The notes beneath the pieces were generated by a model. That model did no database searches. It was not told the origin of the DNA and saw only the letters and a list, made by a program, of their open reading frames with translations. A program made the translations under genes and the position numbers. Below are positions 3,461 through 41,089 of a stretch of 64,000 bases of DNA, piece after piece. Every line of letters begins with the position of its first letter. Within the stretch, counting starts at the first letter, position 1. This DNA is from an uncultured Pseudomonadota bacterium (GTDB lineage Bacteria > Pseudomonadota > Gammaproteobacteria > Steroidobacterales > Steroidobacteraceae), in assembly GCA_903838705.1 (NCBI GenBank), contig CAILZL010000011.1:124001-188000 (forward strand). The letters are read 5' to 3'.

Positions 3461-3532
3461 ATACTTCGATACTTGTGGCGGCTGGTAGCAATGATGATGC
3501 TGATTTCACTCGGTGGGTTTGAGCAATAGAGC

Positions 3533-4219
3533 ATGCGATATACACAACAGGAAACTTCAACTGCGGTACGGCTGCAACCTTCTACCACTGATGCCGTATC
3601 GGCCAGCGTCATCTGGCTGCATGGGCTGGGTGCGGATGGGCACGACTTTGTACCCATCGTTCCAGAGCTGCATCTGCCGGATACATTGCCCGTCCGGTTT
3701 ATATTTCCTCATGCGCCGCACCGTCCCGTCACGCTGAACAACGGCTATGTCATGCGTGCATGGTATGACATCAAGGCACTGGCGCTACGGGCTGAAGAAG
3801 ATGCTGCAGGTATCCGTGCTTCTGAAATGCTGGTGTGTGATTTGATTCAGGCCGAAGTGGCAGCGGGCATAAAGGCCAGTCGCATCGTGATAGCCGGATT
3901 CTCTCAGGGCGGAGCGATTGCCCTGCAGACCGCGTTGCGTTATCCGCAGCGGCTGGCGGGTGTGCTGCCCTTGTCTACTTACCTGCCATTACGTGATTCA
4001 CTTGCAGCTGAGGCCAGTGCGGCGAATGCTGATATTCCCGTCCTGATGTGTCATGGCCGTCAGGATACGGTGGTGCCGGTACAGCTGGGTGAGCGTTCGC
4101 GTGATGCCTTGCTGACGCAGGGATATGCAGTGGATTTTCGTTACTACGATATGCCGCATTCCGTGTGTGCAGAAGAAATACGGGATATCGGTTTGTGGTT
4201 AACGAGTCTGCTCACCTGA
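3533..4219 (+). CDS. Phospholipase/carboxylesterase (alpha/beta hydrolase)
   Basis: A 228-residue cytosolic alpha/beta hydrolase of the Abhydrolase_2 (carboxylesterase/acyl-protein thioesterase-like) family. The nucleophile motif GFSQGG gives Ser124. The acid is Asp178 in HGRQDTVVP and the histidine is His209 in DMPHSVC. The oxyanion region WLHGLGADGHDF at about 28-39 is typical of the family, and length is normal. The enzyme should cleave short-chain carboxyl esters; the natural substrate is unknown. The ribosome binding site is weak. The gene stands alone and converges on the SPOR-protein gene. Confidence 0.88.
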   Translation: MRYTQQETSTAVRLQPSTTDAVSASVIWLHGLGADGHDFVPIVPELHLPDTLPVRFIFPHAPHRPVTLNNGYVMRAWYDIKALALRAEEDAAGIRASEMLVCDLIQAEVAAGIKASRIVIAGFSQGGAIALQTALRYPQRLAGVLPLSTYLPLRDSLAAEASAANADIPVLMCHGRQDTVVPVQLGERSRDALLTQGYAVDFRYYDMPHSVCAEEIRDIGLWLTSLLT

Positions 4220-4255
4220 GTTGTCCATGCCATGCGGGATTTCAGGCCGATCTAT

Positions 4256-4834
4256 TCAGTTGGCCTGTCTGGCTGATTCCAGTTTGACAACCATCGCATC
4301 AATCTGAACTTCACGCAGTTTGCGGCGTGTGTCTTCCAGTTTGTTCAGATTGTTGATCGGGCCAATGCGAACGCGGTGCCATGTGTCATTATCAATGCTG
4401 ACTTTCTGAATGGTGGATTCAATGCCCTGCAGGGCAAGGCGGGCACGCACGCGATCTGCATCGGCAAAATTGTGATAAGAACCGACTTGCAGGATATAAG
4501 AGCCCGGTGCGTCTATCGCGCCTGATGCAGATGAGTTGCTGGCTGTCTGGGTTTTGTCATTTTTTATTTCAACTTCCTGCTTCGGAAGTACATCATAAAA
4601 ATCGTACTGGGTGTCAGTTTGCGCAGATTCAGGTGCTGGCGCTTCCTTGGTGCTTCCCGGTTGTTCATTGGTGAGCGGTGCGTTGTGGGCACTGACCTGT
4701 GCGCCGGGCCGGCGATCGAACAGATAGACTGCTGTGGCCACTGTTAATCCGATCAGCAGGCCGATTGCAAAGCCACCCCATGCGGAAATCCCGCCACTGG
4801 TCCGGGTATGAGTGTTTTTGTAATCACGCGCCAT
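4256..4834 (-). CDS. SPOR-domain membrane protein (FtsN-like)
   Basis: A 192-residue protein with a cytoplasmic tail, one transmembrane segment (about residues 15-38, [20 protein letters not shown]) and a variable periplasmic linker. A C-terminal SPOR domain spans about 110-185 ([19 protein letters not shown]... and WHRVRIGPI). SPOR domains bind denuded septal peptidoglycan, so a role at the division site is likely. The start ATGGCGCGTGATTAC at 4834 overlaps the end of argS by 11 bp; the longer upstream frame would extend further into argS. The order priA-argS-SPOR protein is conserved in gammaproteobacteria, where hslVU often follows; here hslVU is absent. Confidence 0.85.
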
Positions 4835-6545
4835 GATTGACAGCTTTCTCGGTAGACCACATGGATTCCGGTGCACTTACTCCCAGCAGGTGCAAGCCAT
4901 TGGCAATGACCTGCTTTGCAGCGGCCACCAGATTCAGACGTGCATTGCGCAGCGCGGCATCTTCGACCAGAAATACATGCGCGTTGTAATAGGTATGAAA
5001 GTCACCCGCCAGTTCGCGCAGATAGTGAGCAATCTGATGCGGCTCAAGTGCCGCCGCCGCTGTGCTCAACAGTTCTGGATACTGAGTAACGCGACGCATC
5101 AATGCACTTTCATGAGATGTATCGAGCAGATGCAGGTGGGCTGCACCCAAAGTGCGATCATGAATGTATCCTTTCTCGCCCAACTGACGGAACACGCTGC
5201 AAACGCGTGCATGGGCATACTGCACGTAGAACACGGGGTTTTCTTCACCCTGTGCCAGTGCCAGATCAATGTCGAATACAAACTCGGTGTCGGCACGGCG
5301 TGATGCCAGGAAGAAACGCACTGCATCGCGACCCACCCATTCGATCAGGTCGCGCACCGTCACATAGGAACCGGCCCGCTTGGAGATTTTCACTTCTTCG
5401 CCGGCGCGCATTACCTTGACCATCTTGTGCAGCACGTAATCCGGATATCCGGCAGGAATGCCGAGGCTCAATGCCTGCAATCCAGCCCGTACGCGAGTGA
5501 TGGTGCTGTGATGATCGGAGCCCTGAATATTGATGGCGCGATGAAAGCCACGTTGCCACTTGCCTACGTGATAGGCCACATCCGGTACGAAGTACGTGTA
5601 GCTGCCATCTGATTTGCGCATGACGCGATCCTTGTCGTCACCATATTCAGTAGTGCGCAGCCACAAAGCGCCGTCCTGTTCATAGGTTTTGCCGCTGGCA
5701 ATGAGGCCAGCAACGGTGTTGTCCACTTTGCCGTCCGAATACAGGCTGGACTCAAGGTAATACTGATCAAATTTCACGCCGAAAGTTTGCAGATCAATAT
5801 CCTGTTCATTGCGCAGGTAGGTGACTGCGAACTGACGGATTGATTCCAGATCTTCACGATCTCCGCTGGCAGTGACTGCGATACCATCCATCGCACGAAC
5901 CGTTTTCCCGGCCAGAAAGTCAGCAGCGATATCGGCGATGTAATCACCGTTGTAGGCGGCTTCGGGCCATGCTGCGTCGCCCGGTTTGAAACCTCTGGCA
6001 CGTGCCTGAACGGATAAAGCCAGATTCTGGATCTGCACACCGGCATCGTTGTAGTAGAACTCACGGGTGACAGCGTAGCCCTGCGTGGCCAGCAGCGCGC
6101 CCAGTGCATCGCCCAATGCCGCCTGCCGCCCATGACCCACATGCAGCGGACCGGTTGGATTCGCTGAAACAAATTCCAGCAACACCTGCTGGCCGTTACC
6201 GGTTGTGGAATGACCGTAGTTTGCAGCCTGCTGCTGTACCGAATCGAGTTCCTGCGCATAGGCATTCGGTGACAGATGGAAATTGATGAAGCCCGGTCCG
6301 GCTACCTCAACCTTGCTCAGCAGGGCGCTGGCAGGCAGCGCAGCGATCAGTGCCTGTGCCAGTTCACGCGGATTGCGTCTGGCTGCTTTCGACAGGCGCA
6401 TGGCGAGATTGCAGGCGAAGTCACCATGGCTGGCATCGCGAGTGCGTTCCAGCTCAATGGCGGGTATATCCAGTTCAGCAGGGAGCGTGCCTGCTGGCAG
6501 ATTACTGAGTGCTGATTCGAGCAGGGTCTGTATTAGGTGTTTCAA
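4824..6545 (-). CDS. argS: Arginyl-tRNA synthetase
   Basis: A 573-residue class I aminoacyl-tRNA synthetase. The HIGH-type motif appears as HVGHGR in [18 protein letters not shown]. The KMSKS-type loop appears as [12 protein letters not shown]. The N-terminal Add-1 tRNA-recognition domain (about residues 1-90) and the C-terminal DALR anticodon-binding domain (ending in [14 protein letters not shown]) are both present, and length is normal for bacterial ArgRS. It charges tRNA-Arg with arginine in the cytosol. It lies 81 bp downstream of priA and overlaps the SPOR gene, so the three are probably cotranscribed. Confidence 0.97.
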
Positions 6546-36039: not shown

Positions 36040-36786
36040 TTACTTGACCGCTTTCAGCTCTGCTTCCAGTTGATCCTTGTCCAGCGCTGCTGAAATCCGG
36101 TGTCCATCCGCAAAAAAAATAGTGGGTGTGCCATTCACTTTCAGCTTTTCACCCAGCTTGACCATGGTGGTAACTTCATCAGCCTTGCAGCTGATGGCGG
36201 GGGGTTTCTTCTTGTTGACCATCCACGCTGTCCACGTGGCAGCTCGATCAGGAGCGCACCAGATATTTTTTGCTGTATCTGTCGCGCCGGGATGCAGGCT
36301 TTCCAGAGGATAGAGGAAGGTATACACGGTGATATTGGTCACTTCCTGCAAGGTGTTTTCAAAACGCACACAGAACGGACAATGCGGATCTGAAAAAACA
36401 GCAATCTTGCGACTGCCGTCACCTTTGACATGCTTGATTGCCAGGCTGAGTGGCAGATCGTTGAATTCAACTCTGGATAATTCATTCCATCGTTTGGCAG
36501 TCAGGTCTGTGCGTGTCTTGGTATCCATCACCCGGCCATAGAACAGATAGTCACCAGTGCTGTCGACATAGAACATTTCGCTGTCAGTGATGACTTCATA
36601 CAGCCAGGGCCATTGAGATGGTTGTACTTTCTCGATCACCATTTTGGGCGGCAGGCGCGATTGCAGGGTTTTCAGGATGCGGTTCATATCATCACTATTG
36701 GCAGGCGTGGTCACCTGCGCACCAGCAGAAGAAGTCAATGCGATTGCAATGAATGCACTGAGGAAGCTGCTTATGACCTTATTCAC
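36040..36786 (-). CDS. dsbC: Thiol:disulfide interchange protein DsbC
   Basis: A 248-residue periplasmic disulfide isomerase with a signal peptide at about 1-23 (ending AGA-QV). An N-terminal dimerisation region at about 30-100 precedes a thioredoxin-fold catalytic domain with Cys136-Pro-Phe-Cys139 in FSDPHCPFCVRFE. The cis-Pro loop reads NGTPTIFFADG. The E. coli enzyme has CGYC; the CPFC variant is seen in other proteobacteria. It corrects mispaired disulfides and is kept reduced by DsbD, which is not in the window. The start is GTG at 36786 with AAGGCGG upstream. Confidence 0.9.
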   Translation of the reverse strand: MNKVISSFLSAFIAIALTSSAGAQVTTPANSDDMNRILKTLQSRLPPKMVIEKVQPSQWPWLYEVITDSEMFYVDSTGDYLFYGRVMDTKTRTDLTAKRWNELSRVEFNDLPLSLAIKHVKGDGSRKIAVFSDPHCPFCVRFENTLQEVTNITVYTFLYPLESLHPGATDTAKNIWCAPDRAATWTAWMVNKKKPPAISCKADEVTTMVKLGEKLKVNGTPTIFFADGHRISAALDKDQLEAELKAVK

Positions 36787-37235
36787 TGGATACCGCCTTG
36801 CATATCAAATTGATTCGCGTCGTTCGATTCAGAAGTTTGTAAAAAGTTAGTCGAATAGTCTGTCTGGCATCGTGACGAGCAAGATGTGAATCAGGTATTG
36901 CGCTGAACTTCCGATGAATCATAACCATAAACATGGGGTAAGCACTGGACTTCCGTCTAACTCTGAATATCTCACGCCGGCTATCAGGGCACGCCGTGCT
37001 TTTCACATCACAGCAAAATTTTTTTCAGTGATAGATTCAAGCTGTAAAGCATTCACTGATCTTGCAGATAGGTTATTGGCTCTTCAGAAAATCATTAGAA
37101 CCTTTTCACTTGTTCAGCATGATCCTGCTCATGTAGCAGGGCAATGAGTTGAGAGAGCGATTCATTCGCTGGTAAATGACTGTAATTGCAGCTATTTTCA
37201 GTTGGATACACGAGTACAAAATTGTTTACAAATCT
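36787..37235. other. AT-rich gene-free stretch upstream of a candidate RNA
   Basis: About 450 bp without a supported gene. A rightward frame at 36914-37147 (77 codons) has no ribosome binding site and no recognisable content. The base composition is more AT-rich than the surroundings. A possible promoter for the downstream candidate RNA ends the stretch: TTGGAT at 37202-37207 and TTTACA or TACAAA at about 37225-37232. Confidence 0.45.
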
Positions 37236-37237
37236 CA

Positions 37238-37473
37238 ACAATGCACGTAGTCTCGCGCACCTGACAGAGCAGAGATGCGGGGATAGCTGCAGTACAAAGC
37301 TGCAACAAAGGGGGATGGGGCCGAAAGGCTCCGACGATGACCGAGGGAAAGGCGCGTAGAGTAGTTGGGGGAGGAATAACCTAGGGCTTGTAGAAGAAAA
37401 TCACGCCTGGCCCATTCGAGCAATTAAAAACAAAAATTGAATTAAAGAAGCCCCTTCAAAGGGGCTTTTTTTT
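37238..37473 (+). ncRNA. Candidate structured non-coding RNA with intrinsic terminator
   Basis: About 235 nt between a possible promoter (TTGGAT, 17 bp, TTTACA) and a strong terminator. No coding frame fits. Local helices include TGCAG/CTGCA at 37288-37304 and GGGGCC-GAAA-GGCTCC at 37317-37332 (six pairs closed by a GNRA loop). A possible long-range helix joins CGCGC near 37254 with GCGCG near 37353. Several GGA motifs lie in purine-rich stretches, as in CsrA/RsmA-binding RNAs, but the sequence does not match 6S RNA, RNase P RNA, tmRNA, SRP RNA or a riboswitch class I know. The exact 5' end is a guess. Confidence 0.45.
37448..37473 (+). terminator. Strong rho-independent terminator
   Basis: AAGCCCC (37448-37454) pairs with GGGGCTT (37461-37467) around TTCAAA and is followed by a run of eight T (37466-37473). 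No protein gene precedes it on this strand within more than 1.4 kb, which is the main reason to suspect an RNA gene ending here. It could alternatively act as a leader terminator for the OsmC gene 60 bp downstream. Confidence 0.88.
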
Positions 37474-37532
37474 CGCCTGCCGGATACGCAGCTGGTAACC
37501 TCACAGATTCCGGACATATTCAGGTTGGGGCT

Positions 37533-37964
37533 ATGAAAACGCGCATCAAGTGGGTAGAGGACATGATGTTTGTGGGGCAGACTAGCTCAGGGCATGCCGT
37601 TGTCATGGATGGATCGCCGGACATCGGTGGTCACAACCTCGGCCCCCGCCCGATGGAAATGCTGCTGCTGGGCCTCGGCGGTTGCAGTGCGATTGATGTG
37701 GTGTTGATTCTCAAACGTGGCCGGGAAGCCATTACCGACTGCGAAGTGGAAATCGAAGCCGAGCGTGCTGCTACCGATCCGAAGATATTCACCCGGATCA
37801 ATATGCATTACATCGTGACTGGCAGCCAGCTCGACAGGAATAAGGTGGATCGTGCCATCAAGCTGTCTGCGGAAAAATACTGCTCAGCTTCAGCAATGCT
37901 GGGTGCAGTGGCATCCATCACTCATGACTTCGAATTGCGGGATGTAGCCGCAGGCAATGCATGA
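37533..37964 (+). CDS. OsmC family protein
   Basis: A 143-residue protein of the OsmC/Ohr fold, YhfA-like branch. The first conserved cysteine lies in GLGGCSAIDVVLILKRGR and the second in EKYCSASAMLG. The family reduces organic hydroperoxides with a Cys pair. The YhfA-like members are less well characterised but keep both cysteines, as here. The gene is 60 bp downstream of a strong terminator and overlaps the MFS gene by 4 bp (ATGA), which implies translational coupling. Confidence 0.88.
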   Translation: MKTRIKWVEDMMFVGQTSSGHAVVMDGSPDIGGHNLGPRPMEMLLLGLGGCSAIDVVLILKRGREAITDCEVEIEAERAATDPKIFTRINMHYIVTGSQLDRNKVDRAIKLSAEKYCSASAMLGAVASITHDFELRDVAAGNA

Positions 37965-39142
37965 GCAGGCAGGTGACCGTCCGCAGTGATGCCAGCATAT
38001 TGTGTGCGGTGTTCATGGTGGCCTTGAATCTGCGGCCCGCATTGGCATCGCTGGGGCCGGTACTGGAAACGCTGCGCACTGATCTGAATCTGTCGCATGG
38101 TTCAGCAGGGCTGCTGACGACCCTGCCTGTGCTGTGCATGGGTGTATTTGCTCCCCTTGCCATGTCCATGAGTGCGCGGTACGGGTTAAGAAAGGCCATC
38201 TTGTGCAGTACATTGTTGATTGGTTGTGCAACCCTGCTGCGCAGCTTGGGCAATTTCACCGGCCTCCTGATAAGTTCCGTATGCGCAGGCGCAGGCATCT
38301 CAATCCTGAGTCCGCTGCTGAGTATTTTCGTGAAACGCCGATTCCCTGCTCGAAGCGCAAGAGTGAGCAGCTGGACAACCAGCGCCTTATGTATGGGTGC
38401 GGGTCTGTCGGCAGGTACCAGCGCATTCCTGAGCACTTGGCTGGGCTGGCCAACGGGGCTGGCGTGCTGGAGTGTGCTGGCATTTGCTGCTGCCTTGTTA
38501 TGGTGGTGGATCATGCCGCCGGTTACCGATACGACGCTCGCAATCAGGTATTCTTTGCCCTGGCGTCAGCCGTGTGCCTGGTTGCTGATGCTGATCTTCG
38601 GTGTGCACAGCGTGATTTTTTATGTGCTGCTGGCCTGGGTGGCGCCTGCTTATATCGAATACGGCAAGAGTGCGGTGGATGCCGGACATTTGCTGGGACT
38701 GTTCGCCATCATGCAGGTTGTGGGTACCATGCTGGTCAGTGCTTTGCCAACCAGACAGCGTGAACGGCGTCCAGCTATCTTGTTGAATAGCGGCTGCATG
38801 CTGGCGGGTCTGGCCGGCATCTGGCTGGCACCGACTTTCATGCCGGAGCTGATGATGTGTCTGCTGGGTGCGGGTACGGCGGGATTTTTTTCGCTGATGC
38901 TGATTCTGCCGCTGGATTACAGCGAGTCACCTGAAGCGGCAGGCGCATGGACCGCCATGATGTGCGGGGGCGGTTACGTCATCGCATCTACAGGACCCGT
39001 GCTTGCGGGCTGGGTACGTGATTACAGTGCCAGTTATCACAGTGTATTCATGCTGTTGACCCTGATGAGCAGTCTGGTATTCATGGCCTGTTTCCTGCTG
39101 GCGCCAGTGTCTCCGCGCGCCGGGGCCGCACATGCACTTTGA
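37961..39142 (+). CDS. MFS transporter, CynX/NimT type
   Basis: A 393-residue protein with twelve predicted membrane helices. The opening block ALNLRPALASLGPVLETLR is typical of the cyanate/nitroimidazole (CynX/NimT) branch of the major facilitator superfamily. The central loop holds KRRFPARSARVSSWTTSALCMGAG. The substrate cannot be read from sequence. It overlaps osmC-like by 4 bp and the LysR gene by 11 bp, so all three are probably one transcript, and the LysR protein may regulate the transporter. Confidence 0.87.
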   Translation: MSRQVTVRSDASILCAVFMVALNLRPALASLGPVLETLRTDLNLSHGSAGLLTTLPVLCMGVFAPLAMSMSARYGLRKAILCSTLLIGCATLLRSLGNFTGLLISSVCAGAGISILSPLLSIFVKRRFPARSARVSSWTTSALCMGAGLSAGTSAFLSTWLGWPTGLACWSVLAFAAALLWWWIMPPVTDTTLAIRYSLPWRQPCAWLLMLIFGVHSVIFYVLLAWVAPAYIEYGKSAVDAGHLLGLFAIMQVVGTMLVSALPTRQRERRPAILLNSGCMLAGLAGIWLAPTFMPELMMCLLGAGTAGFFSLMLILPLDYSESPEAAGAWTAMMCGGGYVIASTGPVLAGWVRDYSASYHSVFMLLTLMSSLVFMACFLLAPVSPRAGAAHAL

Positions 39143-40019: not shown

Positions 40020-40081
40020 CGTTGATGTGATTCGACAAGTATCTGTTCACTAACTGTTTGTGTTTCCAGTGAGAAAGGGTG

Positions 40082-41089
40082 ATGAAAGCCAGATCTTTAA
40101 TCCGTTGTCTTTTCATGTTTTCCATTCTTTTATTGGTGGCGTGCACAACACCGCTTCGCGAAAGCAGCCCGGGCGGCGTTGCAATGAAGCCAGCCGGTTC
40201 ACTGGTGCTGGTGACGGGTATTACCGGTACACAGGGCAATGGAGTGGCAACTGCACTGCTGGAAAAAGGTTACCGGATACGTGGTCTGACCCGCGACCCC
40301 GCTTCAGATAAATCGAGAGCATGGAGCGCACGTGGCGCTGAGATGGTCAAAGGTGATTTCAACGACTATGAAAGTATTAATGCTGCGGTCAAAGGCGTTG
40401 ACTATCTGTTTCTCAATATCCTGGCCATGCCGGATTACATTGCTGCTGCAAAGCATGTCATTGATGCGGCTGCCGCAGCGGGTGTAAAGCACATTGTCTT
40501 TACCAGCGCACGATTGAATGACCCGGAGTCCGGTTTTGATGAGAATGCCGAAAACAGTAAGCGCATGATTGAACTGTATCTGCGTAATAGCGGTTATCCA
40601 TACACCACATTGCGTATCCCGAAGATGATGGAGAACTTCACCAGACCGGCTGACAAGCAACGCTTGCTAACCGAAGGTATCGTTGACTACGGGACAGACA
40701 ACAGTAAGTCCTATTACATCTCAACCTACGATATGGGCGTGATTACTGCGGCGGCATTTGCCAACAGCAAGGCCTGGCAGGGTCGCGAGGTGAACCTCGC
40801 AGCAGATGCGCTGACGGAACGTCAGCTTGCAGAGCTGCTACGCAAAATCACCGGACTGGATATTGCGTTTAAAAATCCATCCTGGGCTGAATATCGTGGT
40901 GATCCGAATTTTCTGGCGTCCGGAAAATATTATGATCAGCACGAAGTCGGTTACGATCTGGTCAAGCTGCGAAAGGAGTTTCCCGGCATGATGACCCTGG
41001 AGCAGTTCTTGCGCCAGAATGGTTACGAGACACTGGGCGAGAACAGAACAAGCCCTGCGGGATTAGCCGCGCCGACAAGACGTGATTGA
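40082..41089 (+). CDS. NmrA-like NAD(P)-binding protein with lipoprotein signal
   Basis: About 335 residues. An N-terminal signal ends in LLLVACTT, a lipobox with Cys at about residue 22. A Rossmann domain of the NmrA/SDR-atypical type follows from about 42 (LVLVTGITGTQGNGVATALLEKGYRIRGLTRD split at the glycine loop), then HIVFTSARLNDPESGF and YPYTTLRIPKMMENF. The catalytic YxxxK of classical SDRs is absent, as usual in NmrA-like proteins. A dinucleotide-binding NmrA protein outside the cytosol would be unusual. ATG 40082 follows GAGAAAGGG; GTG 40079 is the alternative. Confidence 0.75.
   Translation: MKARSLIRCLFMFSILLLVACTTPLRESSPGGVAMKPAGSLVLVTGITGTQGNGVATALLEKGYRIRGLTRDPASDKSRAWSARGAEMVKGDFNDYESINAAVKGVDYLFLNILAMPDYIAAAKHVIDAAAAAGVKHIVFTSARLNDPESGFDENAENSKRMIELYLRNSGYPYTTLRIPKMMENFTRPADKQRLLTEGIVDYGTDNSKSYYISTYDMGVITAAAFANSKAWQGREVNLAADALTERQLAELLRKITGLDIAFKNPSWAEYRGDPNFLASGKYYDQHEVGYDLVKLRKEFPGMMTLEQFLRQNGYETLGENRTSPAGLAAPTRRD

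Follow-up and report, generated by a model that had tools for sequence, protein, structure and literature searches.

A conserved, structured RNA between dsbC-like and osmC-like genes: a candidate small RNA gene in one genus of the Steroidobacteraceae

The dsbC-osmC Intergenic Region

The window analyzed here, the whole 64,000-nucleotide stretch of contig CAILZL010000011.1 from an uncultured member of the Steroidobacteraceae, contains a dsbC-like gene on the minus strand and, divergent from it, an osmC-like gene on the plus strand. The 746-bp gap between the start of the dsbC-like gene and the osmC ATG at 37533 (36787-37532) holds no supported gene, just as a first-pass annotation of this DNA had described, and the observation in that annotation that no protein gene reads into the terminator of this gap is borne out, the dsbC-like gene being divergent. 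Within the gap, a promoter (TTTACA, 17 bases, TAGTCT) is followed by a folded RNA predicted to be ~213 nt long and by an eight-T terminator, which together form a conserved unit. The osmC-like gene further downstream overlaps a gene for a CynX/NimT-like transporter (Table 1). The order of divergent dsbC, RNA, osmC, and CynX-like MFS gene is the same in 3/3 RNA-carrying genomes, which are the window's own (G000) and two others of the same genus (G001 and G003).

Several observations concern the wider neighborhood. Nothing in the syntenic 12-kb stretches of G001 and G003 matches the NmrA-like gene at window positions 40079-41089. LysR is found in the corresponding neighborhood of G000, G001, and a fourth genus genome, G002, while in G003 the interval from the CynX-like gene to that for pseudouridine synthase (G003:C30:6000-18000, about 3471-5316) gives no LysR match. 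A second dsbC-like gene, with 46% identity, is present elsewhere in the window's genome (G000:C34:69130-69816), and G001 likewise carries two dsbC-like genes.

Table 1. Features of the dsbC-osmC gap and the genes downstream (window coordinates)
Feature	Position	Strand	Remarks
Imperfect palindrome-like box	37178-37201	+	window ...CTGTAATTGCAGCTATTTTCA; 15/24 columns invariant in three species, vs 59/426 in 36787-37176
-35 box TTTACA	37225-37230	+	identical in three species, 17-base spacing kept; 5/6 to TTGACA
-10 box TAGTCT	37248-37253	+	identical in three species; 3/6 to TATAAT
Predicted RNA, ~213 nt	37260-37472	+	start assumed 7 nt after -10; end in T run
Helix H1	37288-37304	+	variable sequence, pairing kept: 6 pairs, 100% of cells paired, one double-change pair
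Multibranch domain	37313-37417	+	closed by GGAU (37313-37316) with AUUC (37414-37417); closing helix invariant
GNRA (GAAA) hairpin H2	37317-37332	+	G-U to A-U in G003; loop-closing C-C mismatch in G001; no double changes
Helix H3, two bulged A	37334-37357	+	one pair C-G / U-A / U-G across three species; outermost pair lost in G001
GGGGAGGAAUAACCU segment	37368-37382	+	near invariant in three species; possible 3-pair helix, which never varies
Hairpin H4, loop with AGAAGAA..CACGC	37384-37413	+	two double-change pairs (A-U/G-C, G-C/A-U); one pair lost in window
A-rich linker	37423-37445	+	variable length; 5/23 columns invariant
Intrinsic terminator with eight T	37448-37473	+	scan lists inner stem 37452-37464 on + strand; eight T in 3/3 species
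TGnTAACCT	37493-37501	+	common to three species; possible extended -10 of a separate osmC promoter (putative assignment; conserved -35 not identified)
osmC-like gene	37533-37964	+	NCBIfam PRK10738, OsmC family protein
MFS transporter gene, CynX/NimT-like	37961-39142	+	4-base overlap with osmC; TIGR00896 256 bits, below cut-off 406

Promoter and Predicted Transcript

The first-pass annotation had placed promoter boxes at 37202 and 37225. A promoter is indeed part of the conserved unit; the 37225 box is better read as its -35 element, paired with a -10 at 37248-37253, and the 37202 box falls in a poorly conserved stretch, in which 9/22 columns are invariant (37202-37223). As a -10 element TAGTCT is weak, which counts against an autonomous RNA gene, and a simple promoter scan listed no promoter here because this box agrees with TATAAT at only 3/6 positions: TTTACA-17-TAGTCT scores 8 against a threshold of 9/12. 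Given a promoter at 37225-37253, the RNA is predicted to start near 37260 and to be ~213 nt long, which corrects the transcript length of 230-240 nt proposed previously; the conserved promoter and RNA start lie ~23 bases downstream of the arrangement given by the earlier boxes. The counterparts of the predicted RNA measure 204 nt in G001 and 209 nt in G003.

The palindrome-like box upstream of the -35 element is a possible site for an activator or other regulator. It presumably resembles a GacA-type palindrome in outline; the spacing differs and identity is not claimed. On the other side of the RNA, the distance from the terminator to the osmC ATG is constant at 59-60 nt in the three species, and the conserved TGnTAACCT within this stretch could be osmC's own promoter. 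No common hairpin fold at the ribosome site precedes osmC, the folds differing among the three species.

Sequence Conservation

The corresponding DNA is 78% identical to the window in G001 and 73% identical in G003. Across the three species, 85/118 columns of the RNA core are invariant, compared with 44/143 osmC third codon positions (P = 2.6e-11) and with 59/426 columns of the poorly alignable upstream gap, 36787-37176 (P = 2e-33), columns being treated as independent in both comparisons. Invariant columns number 24/30 in the promoter, 21/29 in the terminator, and 23/61 between the terminator and osmC; within the RNA, they number 14/31 in the first 31 bases and 8/22 in H1. Purifying selection on the RNA sequence is, on this three-species comparison, clear. 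Conservation in related genomes had been put forward in the first-pass annotation as a check on the proposed RNA, and the sister species do conserve it, at the same dsbC/osmC gap.

Predicted Secondary Structure

RNAalifold, applied to the three cores, predicts H1 followed by a GGAU/AUUC-closed multibranch domain that contains the GNRA hairpin, the bulged-A helix, a small helix, and H4. Two of these elements, a second stem at 37288-37304 and the hairpin GGGGCC-GAAA-GGCUCC at 37317-37332, had already been recognized from the single sequence and are present where they were described. By contrast with these, a suggested long-range CGCGC/GCGCG helix was rejected: its 5' half (37254-37258) precedes the predicted start and is not conserved. 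The terminator AAGCCCC-TTCAAA-GGGGCTT has its stem at 37448-37467 as proposed, with the T count amended to eight in all (37466-37473), two of them within the stem. In total, four terminator-like sites occur in 36400-38200, where 1.3 are expected.

The fold is more stable than that of shuffled sequences. The window stretch 37236-37474 has a fold z of -3.05, with 1/200 shuffles as good. For the three-species consensus without linker and terminator, z is -3.5 on the plus strand (0/1000 column shuffles as good) and -1.05 on the minus strand (136/1000). When sets of 500 column shuffles were applied to the full RNA and to its parts, z was -6.7 for the full RNA (0/500 as good), -3.6 without linker and terminator (0/500), -3.2 for the 5' part (6/500), and -2.35 for the junction alone (9/500).

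Standard pairs fill 97% of the cells of the consensus fold. Four double-change pairs are found in three helices (one each in H1 and H3 and two in H4), a number reached by 16/500 shuffles; the covariation score and the percentage paired are each likewise reached by 16/500. There is no excess of further pair types (9 vs 8.3 in shuffles; 336/500 reach 9). Covariation, the other comparative check suggested at the outset, is seen among these three sequences in the double-change pairs, and the further pair types stay at shuffle level. Sliding the structure by 1-3 columns leaves at most one double-change pair, a control that is tilted toward the proposed fold because the structure was derived from the same sequences. 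The closing pairs and the small helix are invariant in all three sequences. Indeed, the GGAU/AUUC closing helix is neither supported nor refuted by covariation, because it never varies, and it is the least certain part of the fold, since longer alignments give a different closing helix. Overall, the consensus fold predicted from three sequences is supported, not proven.

Comparison with Catalogued RNAs

Conservation, the plus strand-specific fold, and the lack of any Rfam match at gathering score support the description of this locus as an unclassified structured RNA that has a promoter and a terminator of its own. Rfam 15, the search that the first-pass annotation had called for, returned no family at that score here, with 0 matches in the whole window and none in loci L002 and L003. 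A permissive search of 36780-37540 gave 21 matches, every one below its cut-off; the highest score was that of Phe_leader, over the terminator (24.5 bits vs cut-off 55), and the lowest E-value, 0.011, that of Cyano-2 at 37140-37297 (20.3 bits vs 40). No tRNA or tmRNA was found in the window. 6S RNA is similar in length, at about 200 nt, but differs in that no end-to-end rod is predicted here. It was rejected as a candidate, and the sole RF00013 match of the genome lies elsewhere (C15:9905-10092, 62.7 bits).

Hfq-associated trans-acting sRNAs such as sraL and STnc40 resemble this RNA in size range, in having their own promoter, and in the A-rich sequence that precedes an intrinsic terminator ending in a long U tail. 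Matches to their Rfam models are either weak or located over the terminator (sraL, 15.5 bits vs cut-off 39; STnc40, 22 bits vs cut-off 45), and long target complementarity in common was not found here. A structured RNA before an osmC gene has a precedent in Pelagibacter, where osmC is preceded by a SAM-V riboswitch that conceals the ribosome site (PMC5069961). Unlike SAM-V, the RNA described here is separated from osmC by an intrinsic terminator and has no Rfam match. Elsewhere in the literature, osmC is listed among the flanking genes of ranked intergenic regions (PMC2704228), and an OsmC/Ohr gene is named within a gene list (PMC3521395). The passages on osmC in these three papers contain no description of this RNA, a weak test given that the search was made without a species name.

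Distribution Within and Beyond the Genus

A DNA search covered 98 genomes, the window's own and relatives, and found the RNA in the same dsbC/osmC gap in 3/4 genus genomes examined, G000, G001, and G003. Two further matches, both in G071 (L004 and L005), are terminators only. The fourth genus genome, G002 (84% complete), gave no match in this search, and an unfiltered covariance-model search of its contig reached at best 8.3 bits. A single contig of G002 carries both dsbC and osmC, with about 6.6 kb between them; LysR comes after osmC, and the CynX-like gene is absent there. Judged by eye, the stretch between dsbC and osmC (G002:C313 873-7491) appears to hold an operon of the MarR-EmrAB type (MarR, outer-membrane efflux, EmrA, and EmrB) along with a gene for an ankyrin protein. 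DsbC is 81% identical to that of the window in G001, 71% in G003, and 59% in G002, values that point to G002 as an outgroup to the three carriers; the RNA may thus have been gained or lost in one event within this genus.

To look beyond the genus, we built a covariance model, R1, on the core 37285-37422. Among 217 family genomes (best 15 candidates per genome), R1 gave three matches at E <= 0.001, all of the genus. For the order, it was run on 396 genomes sampled from a larger group, family members among them (best 8 candidates per genome); of the 24 that matched at E <= 1, three were those already found and 21 were weak. These 21, with E from 0.012 to 0.99 and at most 21.2 bits vs 149-157 for the three carriers, appear to be no more than chance would produce. 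R1 therefore found nothing significant outside the genus among the 217 family and 396 order genomes, at a setting (strict filters, only the best 15 or 8 candidates per genome scored) that may miss diverged relatives. Three other genera of the family contribute 14 further genomes with an osmC homologue (E <= 1e-20). The upstream DNA of 12 of these 14 (all but L064 and L069), inspected by eye, contains no similar RNA, in line with the R1 family search; 8/12 of these upstream regions carry the end of an aldehyde-dehydrogenase-like frame. Searches for a mobile element were negative: blastn at E 1e-5 matched no phage or plasmid, and an exact conserved 22-base pattern had no match in viral contigs. 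An exact 18-base pattern matched 17 loci in a genome contig collection, which were treated as chance.

Possible Functions of the RNA

The leading explanation, to which we give evenly balanced confidence, is a small RNA gene that is autonomous and non-coding and is so far restricted to a single clade. We infer from the sequence that the gene is transcribed. A vegetative-type promoter (37225-37253) would start the RNA near 37260, and a regulator at 37178-37201 would probably tune that promoter. The predicted fold combines a variable hairpin with a multibranch domain that has the GNRA hairpin and conserved purine-rich open segments, and the RNA would end in the A-rich linker followed by the eight-U terminator. 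It would most likely act in trans, with a 3' end (A-rich linker, U tail) that could suit binding by Hfq and a conserved core that may contact a protein or short mRNA sites.

Hfq is encoded in the genome (PF17209, 103.6 bits), and the long U tail of the intrinsic terminator, an Hfq-sRNA trait, is present as eight T in 3/3 species. ARN triplets in the A-rich linker, in runs of 4, 3, and 4 in the three species, show no excess over shuffles, which reach their sum in 30%; not every Hfq-dependent sRNA needs an ARN-rich Hfq site. As to targets, the complement of the H4 loop, with one mismatch allowed, occurs besides the locus at three places in G000, three in G003, and none in G001, and the places in G000 and G003 have no coding neighbor in common (tblastn). 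The complement of the GGGGAGGAA..CCUAGG segment, with three mismatches allowed, occurs besides the locus at one place in G000 and at none in G001 or G003. Apart from the locus itself, G000, G001, and G003 have no place in common that is complementary to either of these two long conserved segments, which makes long antisense pairing by these segments unlikely. A trans-acting sRNA, as guessed earlier, is possible, with this lack of a common site counting against it.

The RNA could instead belong to the osmC-CynX-like operon as its 5' leader, acting as an attenuator or riboswitch specific to the clade. Its folded domain would then govern formation of the terminator at 37448-37473, and production of OsmC and the transporter would depend on the binding, or the absence, of a metabolite or protein. 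The layout fits such a leader, placing leader and terminator directly before a two-gene operon with a transporter, and the Pelagibacter SAM-V switch before osmC is a precedent (PMC5069961). Moreover, RNA and CynX-like gene occur together in three genus genomes, and the osmC of G002 lacks both, the RNA in front and the transporter behind. This counts against an autonomous sRNA and lends circumstantial support to the osmC leader also guessed at first, although the association among four genomes may reflect one evolutionary event. An antiterminator is possible: when the 3' arm of the terminator is left out of the folding, its 5' arm, CCCCU, takes G runs further upstream as partner in each of the three species. 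However, the alternative partner varies (AGGGG in the window, RNA positions 50-54, and in G001, positions 49-53; AGGGGC in G003, positions 90-95), the RNA is so G-rich that any C4 arm would find a partner, and the linker between core and terminator is not conserved. The strong terminator 59-60 nt before the osmC ATG and the conserved TGnTAACCT that follows it were counted for an autonomous RNA. Because the alternative pairing partner is a different one in G003 and TGnTAACCT is possibly osmC's promoter, we place the autonomous sRNA first and the operon leader, which we regard as doubtful, second. We consider unlikely the more specific proposal of an orphan attenuator of riboswitch type that is peculiar to this clade, has a multibranch domain like that of no catalogued class, and controls the OsmC/CynX-type transporter operon via transcription termination. 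A riboswitch restricted to one clade would be unusual.

Two further readings carry much less weight. Titration of CsrA/RsmA by an RNA of the CsrB/RsmZ type, raised in the first-pass annotation, is improbable. The genome has two CsrA genes, and four GGA motifs lie at corresponding places in all three species, but the several GGA motifs that had been noted, although present (five in the window RNA), are not in excess: the counts of 5, 5, and 6 compare with 6.7, 5.3, and 5.5 expected from base composition. The CsrB/RsmZ class consists of repeated short hairpins, and unlike it this RNA has a single, highly conserved core. PrrB_RsmZ has no match in the genome, a weak test in that the model reached its cut-off in 0/14 control genomes. 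Most improbable of all is a conserved DNA element or a short coding gene in place of an RNA, against which the strand-specific fold and the compensatory changes count. Two ATGs (window 37315 and 37337) are common to the three species and open short frames of 14 and 15 codons in the window, and AAGG lies about 8 bases upstream of ATG 37337; at ATG 37315, by contrast, GGGGG abuts the start codon. Per species pair, the 37315 frame has 4-5 nonsynonymous vs 1 synonymous change in 14 codons and the 37337 frame 5 nonsynonymous vs 0-1 synonymous in its first 9 codons, and the stop positions of both frames differ among species.

Significance

The locus holds an uncatalogued, predicted structured RNA, with a clearly selected sequence and a supported fold, that was spotted by eye from one sequence. 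The RNA gene has seemingly been gained or lost within one genus, in which three members carry it and the fourth (84% complete) has the flanking genes without the RNA. Were the RNA the leader of the operon, it would represent a new RNA switch, one for a transporter of the CynX/NimT type.
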